A DNA stretch of 64,000 nt from Herbinix hemicellulosilytica. Lineage in GTDB: Bacteria > Bacillota > Clostridia > Lachnospirales > Lachnospiraceae. The notes beneath the pieces were generated by a model that saw nothing but the letters and a program-made list of their open reading frames with translations, did no database searches and was not told the origin of the DNA. A program made the position numbers and the translations under genes. Position 1 is the first letter of the stretch. Each line of letters begins with the position of its first letter. Positions 31,152 through 40,436 of the stretch are shown piece after piece. The DNA lies in contig NZ_CVTD020000010.1 in NCBI RefSeq assembly GCF_002904165.1, positions 186,001 through 250,000 of the forward strand, read 5' to 3'.

Positions 31152-31180
31152 AAGCAGCCGTAAGGCTGCTTATTTTTTTT
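31152..31180 (+). terminator. intrinsic terminator of the ABC exporter operon
   Basis: AGCAGCC/GGCTGCT perfect stem with a 4-base loop, followed by TATTTTTTTT. Confidence 0.9.
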
Positions 31181-31240
31181 AGAAACAGTAACTTTTATCG
31201 TTATATAAATTTTATATCTGAGGATTTTTTGATTTATTTC

Positions 31241-31293
31241 AAAAAGTTTAAATCCCGTGACAATATTTTCAATAGCCGTTACAAAGTTTGGAA
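31241..31293 (+). promoter_or_regulatory. putative activator site upstream of the importer promoter
   Basis: The 15-mer TTACAAAGTTTGGAA (31279-31293) occurs again at 36170-36184, in both cases exactly 15 bases before an identical TTGACT. Related boxes lie upstream: ACAATATTT at 31260, exactly 21 bases before ACAAAGTTT at 31281, and AAAAAGTTT at 31241. Direct repeats at two helical turns next to -35 are the layout used by AraC-type activators, and an AraC-type regulator is encoded between the two promoters. Confidence 0.7.
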
Positions 31294-31308
31294 AGTAAGG
31301 CCGTTTTG

Positions 31309-31339
31309 TTGACTTAACGGATTTAAGTTTATATATAAT
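31309..31339 (+). promoter_or_regulatory. promoter of the sulfonate-type importer operon
   Basis: TTGACT (31309-31314) followed by TATATA at a 17-base spacing, or TATAAT (31334-31339) at 19. The transcript would start about 60 bases before the Cys-rich leader reading frame. Confidence 0.7.
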
Positions 31340-31404
31340 AACATAAATTTACAGAATCATATCAGGAAACTTTTAGGATATCAAGAAGAAAGGAAGTGTA
31401 AGTC

Positions 31405-31467
31405 ATGAGAAAAAGCCTGATGTGTTGCTGTATAGGCCTTTGTAAATCACTTATGGAATCAGATTAA
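31405..31467 (+). CDS. Cys-rich leader peptide, 20 codons
   Basis: A short reading frame, ATG to TAA, with a good ribosome site (GAAAGGAAGTG, 5-6 bases before ATG). It encodes 20 residues with four Cys, three of them in a row: positions 7-9 and 13 in CCCIGLC. It lies between the promoter and the first importer gene. A run of Cys codons is what a ribosome-stalling attenuator sensitive to Cys-tRNA would need. The CCTATA complementarity described in the next entry supports this. It could instead be a chance ORF or a Cys-rich product, but the position ahead of sulfur-uptake genes argues for a sensor role. Confidence 0.7.
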   Translation: MRKSLMCCCIGLCKSLMESD

Positions 31468-31498
31468 TTAAAAATCAGATAAAAGGAGATGGCCTATA
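31431..31498 (+). promoter_or_regulatory. putative translational attenuator pairing leader codons with the importer initiation region
   Basis: TATAGGCC (31431-31438, directly after the three Cys codons) is perfectly complementary to GGCCTATA (31491-31498), which fills the space between the GGAG (31485-31488) and the ATG at 31501. An alternative pairing is CCTTT (31437-31441) with AAAGG (31482-31486) inside the ribosome site. Either would block initiation. A ribosome stalled on the Cys codons would cover the 5' arm and free the start site, giving expression when cysteine is short. The pairing is seen; the mechanism is inferred. Confidence 0.6.
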
Positions 31499-31500
31499 GA

Positions 31501-32532
31501 ATGGAAATAAATAAGGCAGCATCAAAAACGAGAGATTTTAAACTAAAAGGATTAAATATTTTATCTGCTTTAAAAGGCAAGCTTGCATTTGATTTTAGAA
31601 CAGTTCTTCCGGTAACCTCGGTATTAATAGCCATTATTACAGATGTCTTTATTCCAAACCATAAAAATCTGAAACATCCTGAACTAATGCATTATCGATA
31701 TTTTCTGTATATCTCTCTTTTTGCAGCGGTACTCTTTACCGTACTGTCGTTATTCATTAAAAAAATTAGGGACAGATACGGATACAGAGGATATTTTCTT
31801 ACCGGAGTGTACATTTTTTTGACTTTCTTAAATATAATTACCGCCAAACTGTTACTCCTTCCTCAGATATATTTTCCCAGCATAGCTAGAATTTTTGAAG
31901 TGTTTTTTGATGATACAAAACTTTTGCTTACCTGTATAGGAAGTTCCTTTATGTTATTGGTAAAAGGGATCTTTATAGGTTTTTGCCTTGGAATGATATG
32001 TGGTATAGCCATCGGCTGGAGTAAAAGGTGTAATTACTGGATTTTTCCTATTATAAGGATCTTAGGGCCTATACCGTCATCAACCTGGACTCCTTTGGCC
32101 CTGGTAATTTTTCCGAATGCAAAATCGGCAGCAGTCTTTTTAATAGCATTTGGCGTGTGGTTTCAGATAACGGTTTTAACCTGTTCTGGCATAAAATCGG
32201 TAAACAAGGCTTACTTTGAAGTGGCTTCAACTCTGGGAGCTAGAGACAGGCACAATCTGTTTAAAATAGCGCTTCCTGCCGCCGCACCTACCATTTTTAT
32301 GGGCTTTTTCAATGCCACCTGTTCTTCCTTTGTTGCCCTGATGGCAGCAGAGATGATCGGATGCAAGTCTGGCCTTGGTTGGTATGTCAACTGGCAGAAA
32401 CAGATGCTTGCTTACGCCAATGTGTATGCGGGACTGATTATCATTGCAGTATTCTGCTACGTGTTGGTTACATTACAGTTTAGAATCAGGGACAAATTAT
32501 TATCATGGCAGGAGGGCATAGTAAAATGGTAG
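31501..32532 (+). CDS. NitT/TauT/SsuC-type ABC transporter permease
   Basis: Membrane protein of 343 residues. The first about 120 residues hold extra hydrophobic helices, longer than the usual 250-270-residue SsuC/TauC. The conserved coupling segment is present in EVASTLGARDRHNLFKIALPAAAP, together with PIPSSTWTPLALVIFP. The family imports sulfonates, taurine, nitrate or thiamine precursors. I choose ATG 31501; ATG 31489 abuts the GGAG and is too close. It is the first gene after the Cys leader and overlaps the ATPase gene, so its own translation rate would set that of the partner. Confidence 0.88.
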   Translation: MEINKAASKTRDFKLKGLNILSALKGKLAFDFRTVLPVTSVLIAIITDVFIPNHKNLKHPELMHYRYFLYISLFAAVLFTVLSLFIKKIRDRYGYRGYFLTGVYIFLTFLNIITAKLLLLPQIYFPSIARIFEVFFDDTKLLLTCIGSSFMLLVKGIFIGFCLGMICGIAIGWSKRCNYWIFPIIRILGPIPSSTWTPLALVIFPNAKSAAVFLIAFGVWFQITVLTCSGIKSVNKAYFEVASTLGARDRHNLFKIALPAAAPTIFMGFFNATCSSFVALMAAEMIGCKSGLGWYVNWQKQMLAYANVYAGLIIIAVFCYVLVTLQFRIRDKLLSWQEGIVKW

Positions 32533-33338
32533 AAGCTGCTTATAAATCAACGGGAGCTATATCTGTAAGAAATGTCAGAAAAGAATTTACGGATACAAAA
32601 GGAGAAAGGGTTGTTGCCCTTGACAATGTAAATGTGGATATATATCCGGGGGAATTTATCTGCCTGATAGGGCCTTCAGGCTGCGGTAAATCTACATTTT
32701 TAAGGTTAATTGCAGGTTTGATAACACCCACCGAAGGAGAAATTTTTCTGGACGGAGAAAAAATAACTAAACCTGGCCATGAAAGAGGCCTGGTTTTTCA
32801 GGACCCGACCCTTTTTCCCTGGCTGAATATATACGATAACATCGCCTTCGGACTTAAAGTCAGGCATATTTATAAGGAAAGGAAGAAAGAAGTAAGGGAA
32901 TTTATCCGCCTGGTTAAGCTGGAAGGCTTTGAAAAAGCCTTACCACACCAGTTATCGGGAGGAATGCAGCAACGGGTAGGCTTAGCCAGGGCTTTGGTGA
33001 ACAATCCTAAAGTCCTGCTTCTTGATGAGCCCTTTGGCGCCCTTGATGCCTTTACCAGAATGAATATGCAGGACGAACTTCTTAGAATCTGGAAAGAACG
33101 GGGCACCACAATGATTATGGTGACCCATGATGTGGATGAGGCTGTATACTTAAGCGACCGGATTTTTGTCATGACACCAAGGCCGGCAAAAATAGAAACT
33201 ATTATACCGGTGGATATAGGCAGGAATAAAAAATACGGAAGAAAAAGGGACAGTGCGGATTTTCTCAATCTGCGATCGAAGATACTAAGAGTACTTAATT
33301 TTACAGGGAAAGAAATTCAGCCTGAGTATAATATATAA
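32526..33338 (+). CDS. NitT/TauT/SsuB-type ABC transporter ATPase
   Basis: Cytoplasmic ATPase of 270 residues: Walker A GPSGCGKST, Q-loop VFQDPTLFPW, signature LSGGMQQR, Walker B VLLLDEPFGALD and switch His in VTHDVDEAV. The FQDPTLFPW and EPFGALDAFTR forms are typical of the nitrate/sulfonate/taurine group. ATG 32526 follows GGAGGG and overlaps the last 7 bases of the permease gene. Confidence 0.92.
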   Translation: MVEAAYKSTGAISVRNVRKEFTDTKGERVVALDNVNVDIYPGEFICLIGPSGCGKSTFLRLIAGLITPTEGEIFLDGEKITKPGHERGLVFQDPTLFPWLNIYDNIAFGLKVRHIYKERKKEVREFIRLVKLEGFEKALPHQLSGGMQQRVGLARALVNNPKVLLLDEPFGALDAFTRMNMQDELLRIWKERGTTMIMVTHDVDEAVYLSDRIFVMTPRPAKIETIIPVDIGRNKKYGRKRDSADFLNLRSKILRVLNFTGKEIQPEYNI

Positions 33339-33511: not shown

Positions 33512-34663
33512 ATGAAAATAAAACTTACGCCTATTTTTGTAGCTATTATCTTGGTGGCTGTGATTTTATCCGGCTGCAATGGGACAAAAGAATCCTCCAA
33601 TAAAACAAGTGACAGCAATAACGCTAAGGTGAAAAAGATAGATACACAAGTAAATGAGCTTTCTGTTGATGAAGAAAAAAAGGCTGCAAAAAAGAAGGAC
33701 CCAATACGTATTGTTAATACTTTTGAAGGGACCTGCATGGTTCAGACACAGCTTGCTTATTTATTGGGCTTTTATGAAGCCGAAGGCCTGGTTGAAGGGG
33801 AAGATTATGTATTTGTCGACAGCGGCAGTGAAACAGGAGCTGTACTTATTTCAACAGATAAGGCTGACCTGGTTACGGGGCTGATTGCGGGTATGCTTCA
33901 ACCTCTTGATAATGGGCTGGAAGCCAAGGCAGTATTGGGGCTTCATACCGGCTGTATAACTCTTGTAACTTTAGGTGACAGTGACATTAAATCAATAGCC
34001 GATTTAAAGGGAAAGACTATCGGTGTAAACCAGCTTTCTTCATCCAATCATATAGCGGCTCTTAGGGCCTTGCATTTTGAGGGGATGACTGCCGATGATG
34101 TGGAGTTTGTGGTGTATGACTCCGATTCGATACAGCAGGCATTGCTTAACAGAGCTGTAGACGTTATAGCTTTAGGTGATTATAAAGCAAAGATTATGGA
34201 GAGAGAAGAAGGAGTAAGAATTATTTTTGATACATCCACAGACGTAAGGGTAAAAGATGAGAATTGCTGTGTACTCTTTGCCAGAACAAAAATAATAGAA
34301 GAAGATTCTGAAAGATTGGCAAAAATACTTACGGCTATCCAGAAAGCATCCATATGGATCTCGGAAAATACCGATTTGGCGGCTGAGATTCAGATAGCTC
34401 AGGGTTATGCTCTGGGAGAACTGGAAGTAAATAAAAAACTGCTTCGTACCTATCAATTTCCGACATCTTTAACCAGTTTAAGAGAAGCTATATACAGAAA
34501 TTTTAAGGATGCAAAAGTTTTGGGCCTTTTAAAAGAGGATACGGACGAAACGCAACTTGCCGAAAATAGCTATGTTTTTGTGGAAGGAGTTGCGGACGGA
34601 CTTGATATAACCAATATCCAGGCACCGAAAGACCCTTATCAATTTATAAAGAAGGATAATTAG
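33512..34663 (+). CDS. NitT/TauT-family substrate-binding lipoprotein
   Basis: Extracytoplasmic binding protein of 383 residues with lipobox ILSGC (Cys22), a Ser/Asn/Lys-rich linker (about 23-65) and an SsuA/TauA/NMT1-like domain. Seen: GTCMVQTQLAYLLGFYEAEGL, LHTGCITLVT, IADLKGKTIGVNQLSSSNHIAAL and DSDSIQQALLNRAVDVIALGDYKAK. This ordering is that of sulfonate and nitrate binding proteins. The ligand pocket cannot be read from sequence alone; the regulon context favours an organosulfur compound. AAGGGGAAAG precedes the ATG. Confidence 0.88.
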   Translation: MKIKLTPIFVAIILVAVILSGCNGTKESSNKTSDSNNAKVKKIDTQVNELSVDEEKKAAKKKDPIRIVNTFEGTCMVQTQLAYLLGFYEAEGLVEGEDYVFVDSGSETGAVLISTDKADLVTGLIAGMLQPLDNGLEAKAVLGLHTGCITLVTLGDSDIKSIADLKGKTIGVNQLSSSNHIAALRALHFEGMTADDVEFVVYDSDSIQQALLNRAVDVIALGDYKAKIMEREEGVRIIFDTSTDVRVKDENCCVLFARTKIIEEDSERLAKILTAIQKASIWISENTDLAAEIQIAQGYALGELEVNKKLLRTYQFPTSLTSLREAIYRNFKDAKVLGLLKEDTDETQLAENSYVFVEGVADGLDITNIQAPKDPYQFIKKDN

Positions 34664-34884: not shown

Positions 34885-35985
34885 TCAGATGATGTAATCA
34901 TAGAAGCTGTTTTCTTCCCTGTCATAATCGGAAGGTGATTTTCCTATCACTTTTTTAAAAATCTGATTAAAGTAATTTACGTCTTTATAGCCAAGCTTAT
35001 AGGCTATGTCTATTATGGGAAGGTCGGTATAAGTAAGCAAATATTCCGCCCTTTTTAATTTAACCAAAGTAATAAGTTTAGAATACCTGATGCTTGATTT
35101 TTTGCTAAACAGATTGCTTAGGTACGAATGGTTAATATAAAACTTTTTAGCTATGGAAGTCAGCTTTAGATCTTCTTCAGGGTGCTGCAATATGTACAAA
35201 TGGATCTTTTTTAAGGTTTCATCCTTAAAATCCGGGTTGAGCTGGCAATACAGCTGAAACAAGCCGGTAAACTTTCTCTGATAATAATCAACATAATTAT
35301 TGGTATCATGCAAAACCAAATAGTCTAGCCTTTTATGAAAATTCTGAGAAATATACAAAGACAACCATTCGTGTTTTGAAAATATAGCTTCAACAATAAC
35401 AGCAAAAAGCCGGCTTAACAGGATGTCATGGGATTGAGCCAAAACTGATGATTTACATAAAGAAATCATAACTTTTCGAAACATTTCAAGGACAGTTTCG
35501 TCTTTGCGGGAAAATTTGCTTAACAGTTTTGCAATCTGTCCCTTAGTCAATAAAGAATTAAACTCCGTGCTAAGTGTAGAAGCAGAAGCCTGTAATCTTT
35601 TTTGTCTTTTTAATCTCTCGGCCGCCCGTTCAAATAATGCCTGCATATTTTCCTTGCTTACAGGCTTGGGCAGATAATCAAAGGCTCCATATATAAAACT
35701 TTCTCTTGCATAAGAGAAAGATACGATGTCACTGACAAACACAAAAAGAGGTTCTTCATTTTCCCTGTGAATTAGCTTCAGCAATTGTAATCCGTCATAA
35801 ATAGAAAGATTTATTTCTGTCAGAACAAGGTCATACTTTTTAGTTTTTAAGAGGGTGAGCGCTTCTTCGCCGTTGGTTGCCGTATCCGTACAGACAAACC
35901 CGTCCGGCCCCTTTCCCCAGACAGGAAGGTTTAGCAAGGCTTTTAAGGCAAATTCCTGCGGCTCGACAATCAAGACCTTGTACAT
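34885..35985 (-). CDS. AraC-type (YesN-like) response regulator with degenerate receiver
   Basis: Regulator of 366 residues on the minus strand. The receiver domain (1-120) has the final Lys in YLPKPV, but the acidic pocket reads VEPQE instead of VDDE, and the phosphoacceptor Asp is Glu57 (VLTEINLSIYDG). The C-terminal about 100 residues hold the two AraC HTH motifs (LTSIAKKFYINHSYLSNLF, IIDIAYKLGYKDVNYFNQIFKK). No kinase gene lies near. Loss of the Asp suggests it acts without phosphorylation, or as if phosphorylated. It lies between the two promoters sharing the TTACAAAGTTTGGAA element. Start at ATG 35985, set by AGGGGTGG. Confidence 0.88.
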   Translation of the reverse strand: MYKVLIVEPQEFALKALLNLPVWGKGPDGFVCTDTATNGEEALTLLKTKKYDLVLTEINLSIYDGLQLLKLIHRENEEPLFVFVSDIVSFSYARESFIYGAFDYLPKPVSKENMQALFERAAERLKRQKRLQASASTLSTEFNSLLTKGQIAKLLSKFSRKDETVLEMFRKVMISLCKSSVLAQSHDILLSRLFAVIVEAIFSKHEWLSLYISQNFHKRLDYLVLHDTNNYVDYYQRKFTGLFQLYCQLNPDFKDETLKKIHLYILQHPEEDLKLTSIAKKFYINHSYLSNLFSKKSSIRYSKLITLVKLKRAEYLLTYTDLPIIDIAYKLGYKDVNYFNQIFKKVIGKSPSDYDREENSFYDYII

Positions 35986-36150
35986 CAAGCATCCACCCCT
36001 CGTTATTTTATGATGATATTTTAACATATAGAATTGGAAATCATATATATAGATTTCTATTTTATAACAAGCTAAGCATAAATCAATGGATTTTTCTTAG
36101 AAGAAATAAGAAAATATTTGGCTTTTAACCAAATTTATTAATTACTCTAA

Positions 36151-36184
36151 AAAAAGTTTGTTAACTAACTTACAAAGTTTGGAA
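36151..36184 (+). promoter_or_regulatory. putative activator site upstream of the nitrogenase-like operon
   Basis: TTACAAAGTTTGGAA at 36170-36184, identical to 31279-31293 and again 15 bases before TTGACT. A partial repeat AAAAAGTTTG begins at 36151, 21 bases before ACAAAGTTTG at 36172, giving a two-turn direct repeat. Confidence 0.7.
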
Positions 36185-36199
36185 TTATGACCGAAGCAA

Positions 36200-36227
36200 T
36201 TGACTGATACAGTATGAAGCGTAAATA
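36200..36227 (+). promoter_or_regulatory. promoter of the nitrogenase-like operon
   Basis: TTGACT (36200-36205), 16-base spacer, TAAATA (36222-36227). The -10 is weak, as expected for an activator-dependent promoter. The leader to the PPOX-like fragment is short. Confidence 0.6.
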
Positions 36228-36264: not shown

Positions 36265-36452
36265 ATGGCATTAACAAGGAAACAAATAGAAGACTACATA
36301 AAAAGCACAAAGAAATCCTTCTTGCAACAGTTACCTGTGATAACACACCGGAAATCCGTATCCTGGGAGCGATTGCCACTGAAGGATTAATACTATATTT
36401 TTCTACGTTGGAAAATACGAAAAAAGTAGAGCAAATAACCAATAATCTATAA
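36265..36452 (+). pseudogene. frameshifted N-terminal fragment of a PPOX-like flavin-binding protein
   Basis: ATG 36265, preceded by AGAGG, opens MALTRKQIEDYIK; reading then leaves frame at the AAAAA run (36300-36304). In the shifted frame it continues HKEILLATVTCDNTPEIR, GAIATEGLILYFST and NTKKVEQI to a stop at 36450. These are the first strands of the pyridoxamine-5'-phosphate-oxidase-like fold. One added A would restore a 62-residue frame, still under half the usual 130 or more residues, so the C-terminal half is missing too. It lies between the promoter and the nitrogenase-like genes. Either a decayed first gene of the operon, or a frameshift error on top of a real truncation. Confidence 0.65.
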
Positions 36453-36477: not shown

Positions 36478-37812
36478 TTGAGTGATTTTATAGAACGTTC
36501 AAAATTTTCATGTGCCTTGGGCGGTGCTATTACCACAATAACTGCCATACCAAAGGCAATACCTATTGTTCATGCTTCAGGCGGCTGTGCGGCAGCACTT
36601 TCCAACACATATAATCTGTCTTCAGGCTACAGGGGAACAGGATATTGCGGCGGAAATATGATTCCTACTTCAAATATTACCCAAAGCCATATTGTATTTG
36701 GCGGAGAGGAAAAACTTGCGGGACAGATAGAATCTACAATCAGATATATAAAAGGCGATTTATATATCGTAGTAACAGGATGTCAGACGGAACTGATAGG
36801 CGATGATGCGGTAGGTGTAGCTTTAAAATACAGGGAAAATAATGTTATAGGAGTAAGCACTCCGGGCTTTAAGGGCAATACCTTGCGGGGATATGACGAA
36901 GTATTATGTACCTTAATAAAAGAGGTAGTTGAAAAAACGGATGAGAAAGAAGAAAAAACAATAAATCTTATTGGAATAGTACCTGGACATGACGTATTTT
37001 TTAAAGGTAACATTGAACATTTGACAGATCTATTAAAAAGAATTGGTATCAGGGCAAATACCTTTTTCGGTGACGGAGAAAGTATTGAAAAGATAAAAAC
37101 CTACGGCAGAGCCAAACTTACGGTAGTCCTGTCAGAAACCGCAGGACAGCTTGCGGCAAAGGCTTTTGAGAATGTACATAAGATACCTTACATTACTACG
37201 GACCTGCCTATCGGCCCAAAAGCAACGGAAAAATTCTTAAAACTTATCGGAGAAGCTTTGGGAATTGAAAAAGAGATTATAGACCGGGTGGTGAAAGATG
37301 AAAAAAAGTATTTTTATTCTTATCTTGAAAGAATAGTGGATGCCGCATCCGATCTTGATTTCCAAAGGTATGCAGTCATAGTTGCAGACAGTTATTATGC
37401 ATATCCTTTAACAGAGTTTGTGTCGGAAGAATTGGGATGGATACCTTATTTTGTGGCTGTTAATGATATTGAAGATGATAAGCTGCAGGAAGAATATAAA
37501 AATAAGTTTGACAGACTTACTTCTTATACAAAACCGGAAATTTTATTTGAAAGTAAATCAGGATTAATTGAAAAGAAGCTCGATTTAATTTTTAAAGAGC
37601 AGACGGACTCAAAATACCATGATCGGCCGGAACCGATGTTTATTATAGGAAGTGTTGTGGAAAGGGGCCTGGCAAAGAAATACGGGACAGGGTTTTTGTC
37701 AGTAGCTTTTCCAGTAAGTAACAGGGTTGTACTTAATAAAGGATATGCAGGCTTTAGAGGAGCTTTGACATTGACAGAGGATTTATTATCCGAACTTGTA
37801 AGTGCCAGGTAG
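36478..37812 (+). CDS. nitrogenase component 1-like protein, NifK-type (beta) subunit
   Basis: Protein of 444 residues in the nitrogenase component 1/oxidoreductase family (PF00148). Three Cys at the P-cluster positions of NifK are visible: Cys12 (KFSCALGGA), Cys37 (ASGGCAAAL) and Cys102 (VTGCQTELIGDD), and the segment STPGFKGNTLRGYDEVL matches NifK HTPSFVGS.. . It is shorter than NifK (about 520) and lacks its N-terminal extension. It should pair with the NifD-like protein encoded 20 bases downstream. Start TTG 36478, with GGAGG 8 bases upstream. No NifH, NifB, NifE or NifN gene is in the window, so this is not a nitrogen-fixation operon as it stands. Confidence 0.85.
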   Translation: MSDFIERSKFSCALGGAITTITAIPKAIPIVHASGGCAAALSNTYNLSSGYRGTGYCGGNMIPTSNITQSHIVFGGEEKLAGQIESTIRYIKGDLYIVVTGCQTELIGDDAVGVALKYRENNVIGVSTPGFKGNTLRGYDEVLCTLIKEVVEKTDEKEEKTINLIGIVPGHDVFFKGNIEHLTDLLKRIGIRANTFFGDGESIEKIKTYGRAKLTVVLSETAGQLAAKAFENVHKIPYITTDLPIGPKATEKFLKLIGEALGIEKEIIDRVVKDEKKYFYSYLERIVDAASDLDFQRYAVIVADSYYAYPLTEFVSEELGWIPYFVAVNDIEDDKLQEEYKNKFDRLTSYTKPEILFESKSGLIEKKLDLIFKEQTDSKYHDRPEPMFIIGSVVERGLAKKYGTGFLSVAFPVSNRVVLNKGYAGFRGALTLTEDLLSELVSAR

Positions 37813-37832: not shown

Positions 37833-39362
37833 ATGGCAAATTTATTGACAGGGGATTTAAAATATGATTACTTGTCTGTAGACGAACCTCCTGTAAGGGA
37901 TGAGAGAATAGGCGGTTGTACCGCATATTTCGGTTGCTGCTCAGGACTAAAGGAGGATTTCAGAAAGGGATGTGCCCAGGCTTTAAACAGAAAGTTTTCG
38001 CAAAGCGGCGGATGTCAACTAATGCTTGCTATGGGTATAATTAATACCATTTCAAATATTGTTACTATCATTCATTCGCCTTTGGGCTGCTGCTCAAACC
38101 TTGCGGGTATGGCAGGAGTAAGAAATATAAGCCGTGCTTCAAGAGGACTTAAGACGGAAAACCAGACTTTTATTCATACCAATCTGGATGAACTTGATGT
38201 TGTTAACGGAGGTATAGAAAAGTTAAGACGGGCAATCCTTTATGCAGATAAAGAGTATCAGCCGGAAGTAATAGCAATAATGAACGGCTGTGTTCCCGGG
38301 GTTATAGGCGATGATGTCGACGGCCTTGTAAGGGAATTGCAACCTAAAGTATCTGCAAGACTTGTACCGGTTCATTGTGAGGGCTTTAAAAGCCGTTTTG
38401 TTTCCTCAGGATATGATGCGGCCAATCACGGCATCTTAAAATACCTTATCCGTGAACCGAAAGATACTGATGAATCTGGTACAGAAACCGAATATGAAAG
38501 CAAGGAACGTATCAGTAAGACCGTAAATATTTTTAACGTAGGTTCAAACAGCCATAAAGATGAACTGGAATTATCAAGACTGATTAAAAAGTTGGGCCTG
38601 ATTCCAAGAATTGTCCCGCTTCATGCTTCAGTTTATGATCTGGACCGTCTGGGAGAGGCTGCGCTTAATGTAAGCATATGCGCAACTCATGATGATTACA
38701 TGCTTGGGCATTTAAAGGAAAGATACGGAACGGAGTATGTTCTGGATGTGCTGCCTATAGGAATAAATTGTACCAACAGGTGGCTACGTAAGATTGCCGG
38801 ACATTTTCATTTGGAAAAAGAAGTAGAAGAATTAATAGAAGAGGAAACCAGGGAGTTAATTAAAGCCATAGAACCGTTTGTTAAAGTATTAAAAGGCAAG
38901 AGAGCTTTTGTAGGCGGCGGTGAAACCAGAATACTTACGACGGCAGATTTTTACCGCAGCATCGGCATGGAGATTGTGGGAATAAAATCCCACAATTTAG
39001 ACAGATTTGTCCAGTATCTGCTTGATGAAATTGATAACCCGCATCTTCCGGTTGAAGTTGCCGCAGGCCAACCGGCAGAGGAACTTAATTTGCTAAAGCG
39101 CCTGAAACCTGATATTTATATCGGCCATATCGGCGCCAACGGATGGGTAACCAAGCTTGGTATACCAAACATTCCGTTGTTTGGAACCACCATTAACTAT
39201 ATGGGTTATTCAGGAGCTTATGAACTGGCAAGAAGGGCAGCAAGGGCCCTGAAAAATACCATTTTTTCAAAAAATATAAGTCAAAATACCGAACTTCCTT
39301 TGTCGGATGAATGGATGCAAACATACCCTAAAAAGAATATAGTAAGAGGAGCATTGTTCTGA
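37833..39362 (+). CDS. nitrogenase component 1-like protein, NifD-type (alpha) subunit
   Basis: Protein of 509 residues, PF00148 family. P-cluster-type Cys: Cys61 (SGGCQL), Cys86 (HSPLGCC) and Cys153 (NGCVPGVIGDD); PVHCEGF (179-185) equals NifD PVRCEGF. Cys283 in NVSICATHDDYMLGHLKERYG lines up with the NifD cofactor ligand Cys275. Where NifD has the cofactor His442 in HSWDYSG, this protein reads NYMGYSG (Asn455). An N-terminal Cys-rich stretch (Cys29, 35, 36, 47) is extra. This points to a two-cluster enzyme with a complex metal centre rather than a chlorophyllide- or F430-type reductase, which lack the cofactor Cys. ATG 37833 follows AGAAAGGGTGG. Alignment is by eye. Confidence 0.85.
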   Translation: MANLLTGDLKYDYLSVDEPPVRDERIGGCTAYFGCCSGLKEDFRKGCAQALNRKFSQSGGCQLMLAMGIINTISNIVTIIHSPLGCCSNLAGMAGVRNISRASRGLKTENQTFIHTNLDELDVVNGGIEKLRRAILYADKEYQPEVIAIMNGCVPGVIGDDVDGLVRELQPKVSARLVPVHCEGFKSRFVSSGYDAANHGILKYLIREPKDTDESGTETEYESKERISKTVNIFNVGSNSHKDELELSRLIKKLGLIPRIVPLHASVYDLDRLGEAALNVSICATHDDYMLGHLKERYGTEYVLDVLPIGINCTNRWLRKIAGHFHLEKEVEELIEEETRELIKAIEPFVKVLKGKRAFVGGGETRILTTADFYRSIGMEIVGIKSHNLDRFVQYLLDEIDNPHLPVEVAAGQPAEELNLLKRLKPDIYIGHIGANGWVTKLGIPNIPLFGTTINYMGYSGAYELARRAARALKNTIFSKNISQNTELPLSDEWMQTYPKKNIVRGALF

Positions 39363-39503: not shown

Positions 39504-40436
39504 ATGGCAAATGTAAAAACAAGTATTCTGCAATTAATTGGAAAAACCCCGCTATTGGAAGTTGTAAACTATGAAAAATTTTATAATTTGAAAGCCAAAA
39601 TTATTGTAAAACTGGAATATTTTAATCCGGCGGGAAGCGTTAAAGACAGAATTGCATTTGCCATGGTAGAGGATGCTGAAAAAAGAGGAATTCTAAAGCC
39701 GGGAGCCACCCTGATTGAACCGACAAGCGGAAATACAGGCATAGGTATTGCAGCAGTAGCAGCCGCCAGGCAATATCGGGCTATACTGGTAATGCCTGAA
39801 ACTATGAGTATTGAAAGAAGAAAAATCCTTCGGGCTTATGGGGCGGAGCTTGTTCTAACAGACGGTAAAAAAGGCATGAAAGGGGCCATAGAAAAAGCTT
39901 ATGAGCTTAACAGGGAAATTGAGGGTTCGTATATTTTAAGCCAGTTTACCAATCCTGCCAATCCGGATATCCACAGGAGAACAACAGGAGTGGAGATATG
40001 GGAAGATACGGACGGGAAAGTTGATATTTTTGTCGCGGGTGTGGGGACCGGAGGAACTATAACAGGCGCAGGTGAATACTTAAAATCAAAAAATCCTGAT
40101 ATAAAAGTGGTGGCGGTAGAGCCTGCTTCTTCACCGGTTTTGTCAAAAGGATATGCGGGTAGCCATAAAATACAGGGTATAGGTGCGGGATTCATTCCGG
40201 AAATTCTAAATACAAGTATTTACGATGAAATTATTACGGTAAACGATGAAGAAGCATATAAAGCAAGCCGTGTAATCGCCGTAACAGAAGGAATACTTGT
40301 CGGTATATCATCCGGTGCAGCCCTTCATGCCGCAACAAAGCTGGCAAATAAAGAAGAAAACGAAGGAAAAACTATAGTAGCCATTCTTCCCGATAAAGGT
40401 GAGAGGTATTTGACTACGGAATTATTTTGGGGATAA
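39504..40436 (+). CDS. cysK: cysteine synthase (O-acetylserine sulfhydrylase)
   Basis: PLP enzyme of 310 residues that makes cysteine from O-acetylserine and sulfide. The PLP Lys is in NPAGSVKDRIAF, the substrate loop is TSGNTGIG, the glycine-rich phosphate site is VGTGGTITGAGEYLK, and the C-terminal SSGAALHAA is conserved. Length is normal. TCGGAGGAAAG precedes the ATG. Placed just after the nitrogenase-like genes, it suggests that the reductase delivers sulfide, in contrast to the methanethiol released by methylthio-alkane reductase. It could also be a general housekeeping copy. Confidence 0.93.
   Translation: MANVKTSILQLIGKTPLLEVVNYEKFYNLKAKIIVKLEYFNPAGSVKDRIAFAMVEDAEKRGILKPGATLIEPTSGNTGIGIAAVAAARQYRAILVMPETMSIERRKILRAYGAELVLTDGKKGMKGAIEKAYELNREIEGSYILSQFTNPANPDIHRRTTGVEIWEDTDGKVDIFVAGVGTGGTITGAGEYLKSKNPDIKVVAVEPASSPVLSKGYAGSHKIQGIGAGFIPEILNTSIYDEIITVNDEEAYKASRVIAVTEGILVGISSGAALHAATKLANKEENEGKTIVAILPDKGERYLTTELFWG

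Follow-up and report, generated by a model that had tools for sequence, protein, structure and literature searches.

This locus raises the question of whether a short open reading frame (ORF) with a run of cysteine codons could control the importer operon that follows it. The ORF lies in a 64-kb window (the whole stretch of DNA analyzed) from a gut-type Lachnospiraceae bacterium; in Bacillota, the control of sulfur genes is commonly attributed to T-boxes, S-boxes, and CymR-type repressors. The leader ORF, MRKSLMCCCIGLCKSLMESD, occupies positions 31405-31467 (window coordinates refer to the + strand unless marked otherwise) and comprises 20 codons from the ATG at 31405 to the TAA stop codon at 31465-31467. 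It is preceded by the Shine-Dalgarno (SD) sequence AAAGGAAG (31389-31396), 8 nt upstream of its ATG. Codons 7-9 are TGT TGC TGT (31423-31431), the presumed stall site, and codon 13 (31441-31443) also encodes Cys, so that the 20-codon frame, the good ribosome site, the triple Cys, and the fourth Cys described in a sequence-only reading were all found where they had been reported. The two strands of the window contain 97 SD-preceded ORFs of 10-40 codons with an ATG start; none but this one has four or more Cys codons or a CCC run, and the Cys run is clearly unusual.

The genes downstream of the leader encode a TauC/SsuC-like ABC permease (31501-32532; PF00528, E = 2.5e-22, the closest NCBIfam models scoring below their cut-offs), a TauB/NrtD-like ABC ATPase (32526-33338; PF00005, E = 4.7e-38; start inferred, the longest ORF beginning at 32505), and an NMT1/SsuA-like substrate-binding lipoprotein (33512-34663; PF09084, E = 3.5e-22). 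An AraC-type response regulator gene on the opposite strand (34885-36027, -) also adjoins the same operon in the related genome G006. Two nitrogenase component 1-like subunits are encoded at 36478-37812 (nearest 9fmg/9d9u, E = 4.3e-64; next 1.6e-19) and 37833-39362 (nearest 9fmg/9d9u chain A, E = 1.3e-53; next 1.8e-36), followed by the cysteine synthase CysK (39504-40436; TIGR01139, 457 bits against a cut-off of 351). Both subunits are far closer to the 9fmg/9d9u chains than to any nitrogenase, and 9FMG is the structure of the methylthio-alkane reductase MarDK2H2 (PMC12552129). The presence of the importer, the MarDK-like subunits, and CysK indicates that the region serves sulfur salvage, and the MarDK-like enzyme may use the substrate of methylthio-alkane reductase. 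The leader thus has the arrangement of a Cys-codon attenuator, a short tandem-Cys ORF that looks translated and lies in the 5' leader of an operon with sulfur/cysteine genes. Separately, 36265-36452 was seen to hold what is left of a small gene, frame-shifted and shortened; in G006 its counterpart, upstream of the nitrogenase-like gene, is an intact 150-codon ORF (L212:16738-17190).

The upstream ABC exporter operon is closed by an intrinsic terminator (31152-31171; an 8-bp stem with five GC pairs and a T run), so that an independent transcription unit begins after it. An element made up of the box TTACAAAGTTTGGAA, 15 nt, and a -35-like TTGACT lies upstream of the leader (31279-31314), and a second copy of the box and -35 lies upstream of the nitrogenase-like operon (36170-36205). 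The box and its spacing are identical at the two sites (two matches against none expected in 100 shuffles), and the box is probably the site of a shared transcription factor; its presence with TTGACT before both operons suggests that transcriptional control probably exists beside any leader control. A weak -10 candidate, TATATAAT (31332-31339), offers TATATA at 17-nt or TATAAT at 19-nt spacing. A strict promoter scan made no call there; judged from the sequence, transcription would start at about 31345. The leader ATG is therefore not at the 5' end of the transcript but carries an SD sequence and a 5' leader of about 60 nt after the inferred promoter. A partial TTACAAAGTTTGGAA box also precedes the leader at L039, another importer locus.

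Among RNA controls of sulfur genes, T-box and S-box-type elements are the ones usually met in Bacillota, and one of these or another known riboswitch might overlap the small ORF by coincidence. Rfam, however, gave no match in the window at the gathering score, for T-box or other riboswitch covariance models alike, and still none when the E threshold was relaxed to 1 for 31180-31600, which makes such an overlap highly improbable. The loci L007, L039, L050, L052, and L055 were likewise without a match, save for a distant 5S rRNA. No intrinsic terminator was found in the leader after 31405, the best candidate reaching only -0.3 kcal/mol; the window thus has no trp/his-type terminator between the leader ORF and the first gene.

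A different output was suggested by the start region of the permease. The 5' arm of a predicted anti-initiator hairpin, TATAGGCC (31431-31438), overlaps the third Cys codon of the leader by one base, its first T, and the 3' arm, GGCCTATA (31491-31498), lies between the permease SD sequence AAAAGGAG (31481-31488, 12 nt upstream of the ATG) and the ATG at 31501. The two arms are perfectly complementary over 8 nt, confirming what had been claimed for a pair lying directly 3' of the triple Cys and between the SD sequence and the ATG of the importer gene. The ATG at 31501 is most likely the permease start, as judged by N-terminal alignment with the 77%-identical permease of G006; the in-frame ATG at 31489 is disfavored because it lacks SD spacing. 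The distance from the leader stop codon to the permease ATG is 33 nt. An 8-nt complement between the leader and the start region occurred in 0.9% of dinucleotide shuffles (0.2% when restricted to the 30 nt from Met6 onward), and 8-nt complements at equal spacing were found at 2.8% of random window positions; taken alone, the arms are only moderately unusual (p about 0.01-0.03).

RNAs beginning at the inferred transcript start or at the leader SD sequence were folded, and a stalled ribosome was modeled as a 30-nt footprint on the leader codons. The TATAGGCC/GGCCTATA hairpin was predicted with a probability of 0.78-0.97 in unoccupied RNA or with the 5' part masked; it was lost (P = 0) with a ribosome at Cys7, 8, 9, or 13 and retained with a ribosome at the leader stop codon (P 0.57-0.96). 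Upon stalling at Cys9, the cost of opening 31483-31506 fell from 8.1 to 2.4 kcal/mol in RNA ending at 31506, which was matched by 0.5% of shuffles, and from 10.2 to 7.0 kcal/mol in RNA extending to 31540, which was matched by 5%. When the RNA contained the entire 5' leader and ran to 31540, stalling gave no net fall (6.7 to 7.4-7.7 kcal/mol), as an alternative pairing forms and cancels it. Adding the whole 5' leader and 40 coding bases thus weakens the structural change predicted upon occupancy of the Cys codons. The earlier proposal that a stalled ribosome would free the start was accordingly upheld by folding as to the hairpin and its loss, but the fall in opening cost was absent from the longest RNA.

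On this basis, we consider it somewhat probable that the leader ORF acts as a ribosome-read sensor of Cys-tRNA charging and controls the sulfur-salvage importer at its translation start through the TATAGGCC/GGCCTATA hairpin. When cysteine is plentiful, ribosomes would reach the leader stop codon, and the hairpin would form and hinder 30S loading on the permease. Under cysteine shortage, a ribosome stalled at Cys7-9 or Cys13 would mask the 5' arm, the permease start region would open, and importer expression would rise. The scheme supposes transcription from a promoter near 31309 and translation of the leader ORF; the sign of the cysteine response and the spread of the effect to the remainder of the operon are likewise suppositions. 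In translation attenuation of cat-86 and ermC, ribosome stalling on a leader ORF melts a hairpin that otherwise covers the start region of the following gene. Folding predicts the same layout here, the 5' arm lying next to the codons of the stall, but the signal would be Cys-tRNA rather than an antibiotic, and the predicted hairpin occupies the SD-AUG spacer and leaves the permease SD sequence itself outside the paired element. Taken by parts, Cys sensing by the leader as a whole is likely, and the chance that its output is a translational anti-initiator formed by this hairpin is about even.

A scan of genome contigs gave 80 importer loci, of which G006 and L036-L040 were nearest to the window (permeases about 69-78% identical). 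Only G006 and L039 have a leader, each with two Cys codons; L036, L037, L038, and L040, four of the seven nearest importer loci, have none. The G006 leader peptide (MKKCYKRYVGWAKAIC...) ends 22 nt and the L039 leader peptide (MKRRIQRIGCSKSICNRK) 36 nt before the permease ATG. These two peptides are significantly alike (p = 0.013), and the window peptide showed no significant likeness to other leader peptides (p 0.39-0.74). Neither locus keeps the window arms TATAGGCC/GGCCTATA; a comparison of relatives thus recovered a Cys-coding leader in some of them but never the arm sequence. In G006, the permease AUG is predicted to pair with a segment next to Cys16 (P 0.27-0.78, depending on RNA length), and a stall at Cys16 would free the AUG (unpaired probability rising from 0.12-0.35 to 0.34-0.82). 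This pairing (p about 0.06-0.09 against shuffles) may be a weaker analogue, having the layout of the window with different letters. Folding gave no analogous pairing for L039, whose start region is predicted to be open. Profile and peptide searches of 397 family and 34 genus genomes yielded only chance frames beyond the known leaders of the window, G006, and L039 type.

The differing arms, together with the distances of 22, 33, and 36 nt to the permease ATG, would suit a Cys-sensing leader that acts not through the TATAGGCC/GGCCTATA hairpin but by way of Rho-dependent termination, an effect on mRNA stability, or translational coupling or re-initiation. Conserved terminators are likewise missing from mycobacterial Cys leaders (PMC1262725), whose output has been described as translation attenuation (PMC13236596). 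However, the window hairpin is strongly predicted by folding, and the 33-nt gap exceeds the leader-to-gene peak of 15-16 bp reported for Firmicutes (PMC4833913). With re-initiation, moreover, a finished leader would help the permease, giving a response of the opposite sign, and expression in cysteine-replete cells makes little physiological sense for sulfur scavenging. We regard such other outputs as rather unlikely.

The same comparison bears on whether the leader is a chance frame, with an accidental SD sequence and Cys run and no regulatory role. The leaderless majority of the nearest loci, the poor alignment of the leader peptides, and the origin of the arms in a single species, which gives no covariation signal to draw on, are all consistent with chance; the Cys content, matched by none of the other 96 small ORFs of the window, argues against it. 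So does a second Cys-rich leader in the same genome, MNKDFILFSNNNSFDMDMRMMCMQGMCMLCCALKEYPDIG (L250:2597-2719; containing MMCMQGMCMLCC), here called the C28 leader, in a region (L250:2597-2780) that corresponds to about 57.6 kb on G000:C28. The C28 leader stands behind an 11/12 promoter; after it comes a strong intrinsic terminator, whose stem-loop has -24.7 kcal/mol and is trailed by a T run. Downstream of it are genes for a PepT-like peptidase, a cystathionine lyase/synthase homologue, two nitrogenase-like proteins, and NifB, and the functionally related cluster also holds OAH sulfhydrylase, importer, and NifH genes.

Cys leaders also recur before homologous operons in other genomes. In G353:C4, a CCCSC leader, MKIKGEINQINELRISDRLDLCCCSCRETATISYA (L286:11279-11386, -), is followed by a terminator and by nitrogenase-like and importer genes. 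In metagenome-assembled genomes of Oscillospiraceae/Clostridia, Cys-leader transcription attenuators precede the homologous importer at L050:1851-2045, L052:3736-3872, and L055:3768-3958, three mutually related loci (permeases 84-98% identical). At each of these, an arm that lies among the Cys codons or after them pairs with the 5' arm of the terminator as a competing antiterminator, a textbook-like layout that resembles classical attenuators. An intrinsic terminator after the Cys leader was thus present in C28, G353, L050, L052, and L055. A LysR-type regulator gene lies upstream of the G353:C4 leader, and a Rrf2/CymR-like regulator gene lies near the L050, L052, and L055 attenuators.

SD-preceded ORFs with at least four Cys codons were found in 3/25 cases within 400 nt upstream of an importer and in 0/103 cases elsewhere (p = 0.0067), a placement that also speaks against chance; a looser Cys cut gave no significance (p 0.09-0.2). 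Further leaders were rare: the MCM...CC pattern returned the C28 leader as the only real case in the genus, the G353 leader peptide found no further leader in 397 genomes, a search upstream of NifD-like homologues gave nothing in the nearest operons and only the G353 leader elsewhere, and none of the six additional importers from a family search around the Oscillospiraceae loci had one. Apparent Cys ORFs in L044, L064, L096, L148, and L284 were rejected as repeats, alternative frames, or frames without a downstream sulfur gene. Two other features were noted during these scans. A recurrent leader element, CTGACTGGAAAACCAGAGG...CTCTGGTTTTTT, lies 5' of the importer in L064, L073, L106, L148, and L150, with an apparent terminator and a competing small hairpin and no Rfam match at the scanned loci. 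In L044:2290-2600 (Anaerocolumna), a unit of about 135 nt, repeated three times between a nitrogenase-like gene and cysK, can form long hairpins.

The Cys-leader peptides are unrelated in sequence and therefore look like repeated inventions or fast-evolving leaders. These independent pairs of Cys leader and terminator, in the same genome and in others, are the strongest support for Cys sensing, and we consider a chance origin of the window leader improbable. Of the cysteine attenuator originally proposed for the window, then, the sulfur context, the C28 leader, and the pairs in other genomes speak for Cys sensing, and the absence of the window arms from the two nearest leaders speaks against the particular hairpin.

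The principle of a Cys-codon leader is itself already known. According to Canestrari et al. 2020 (PMID 32181921), as cited in PMC9094748 and PMC13236596, mycobacterial polycysteine leaderless small ORFs are cysteine-responsive attenuators. Like them, the window leader is a short Cys-rich ORF before sulfur/cysteine genes with no intrinsic terminator, and its predicted output is at the level of translation, as PMC13236596 describes theirs. Unlike these leaderless ORFs of Actinobacteria, it bears an SD sequence, has a defined (predicted) hairpin at the start region, and stands in a Lachnospiraceae genome ahead of a TauABC-like importer that has MarDK-like genes beside it. Candidate Cys leaders without terminators were reported in 2005 for the cys operons of Mycobacterium and Propionibacterium and for cbs of Bifidobacterium (PMC1262725); these share the Cys-codon runs and the lack of an obvious terminator with the window leader but differ in phylum, in genes, and in having their Cys codons near the stop codon. 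The earlier statement that Cys-rich leaders are known in mycobacteria is borne out by PMC9094748 and PMC13236596. In Rhodobacterales, uORFC-8-2 before cysS (PMC8632094) is, like the window leader, an upstream ORF with tandem Cys codons inside a switching RNA; unlike it, uORFC-8-2 has an intrinsic terminator as output and a conserved covariance model, and the C28, G353, and Oscillospiraceae leaders are closer to uORFC-8-2 than the window leader is. The earlier reading had known of no clostridial precedent, and we found none for Lachnospiraceae or other Clostridia in the literature searched, which left out most subscription papers.

The window leader is thus a credible, putative cysteine sensor. 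The more interesting claim is that Cys leaders with two outputs stand before nitrogenase-like sulfur operons. There is a little less than an even chance that, in anaerobic Bacillota, Cys-codon leader switches have repeatedly been placed before nitrogenase-like organosulfur-salvage operons and evolved several times, with start-codon occlusion and intrinsic termination as outputs and sometimes both in one genome. If true, this would be a clade-wide layer of Cys-tRNA control so far undescribed in anaerobic Bacillota. One sensor, the Cys codons, would then have two outputs that could be compared side by side in one genome, and Cys-tRNA charging would be linked directly to import and to MarDK-like enzymes that cleave C-S bonds in anaerobic gut and rumen bacteria.
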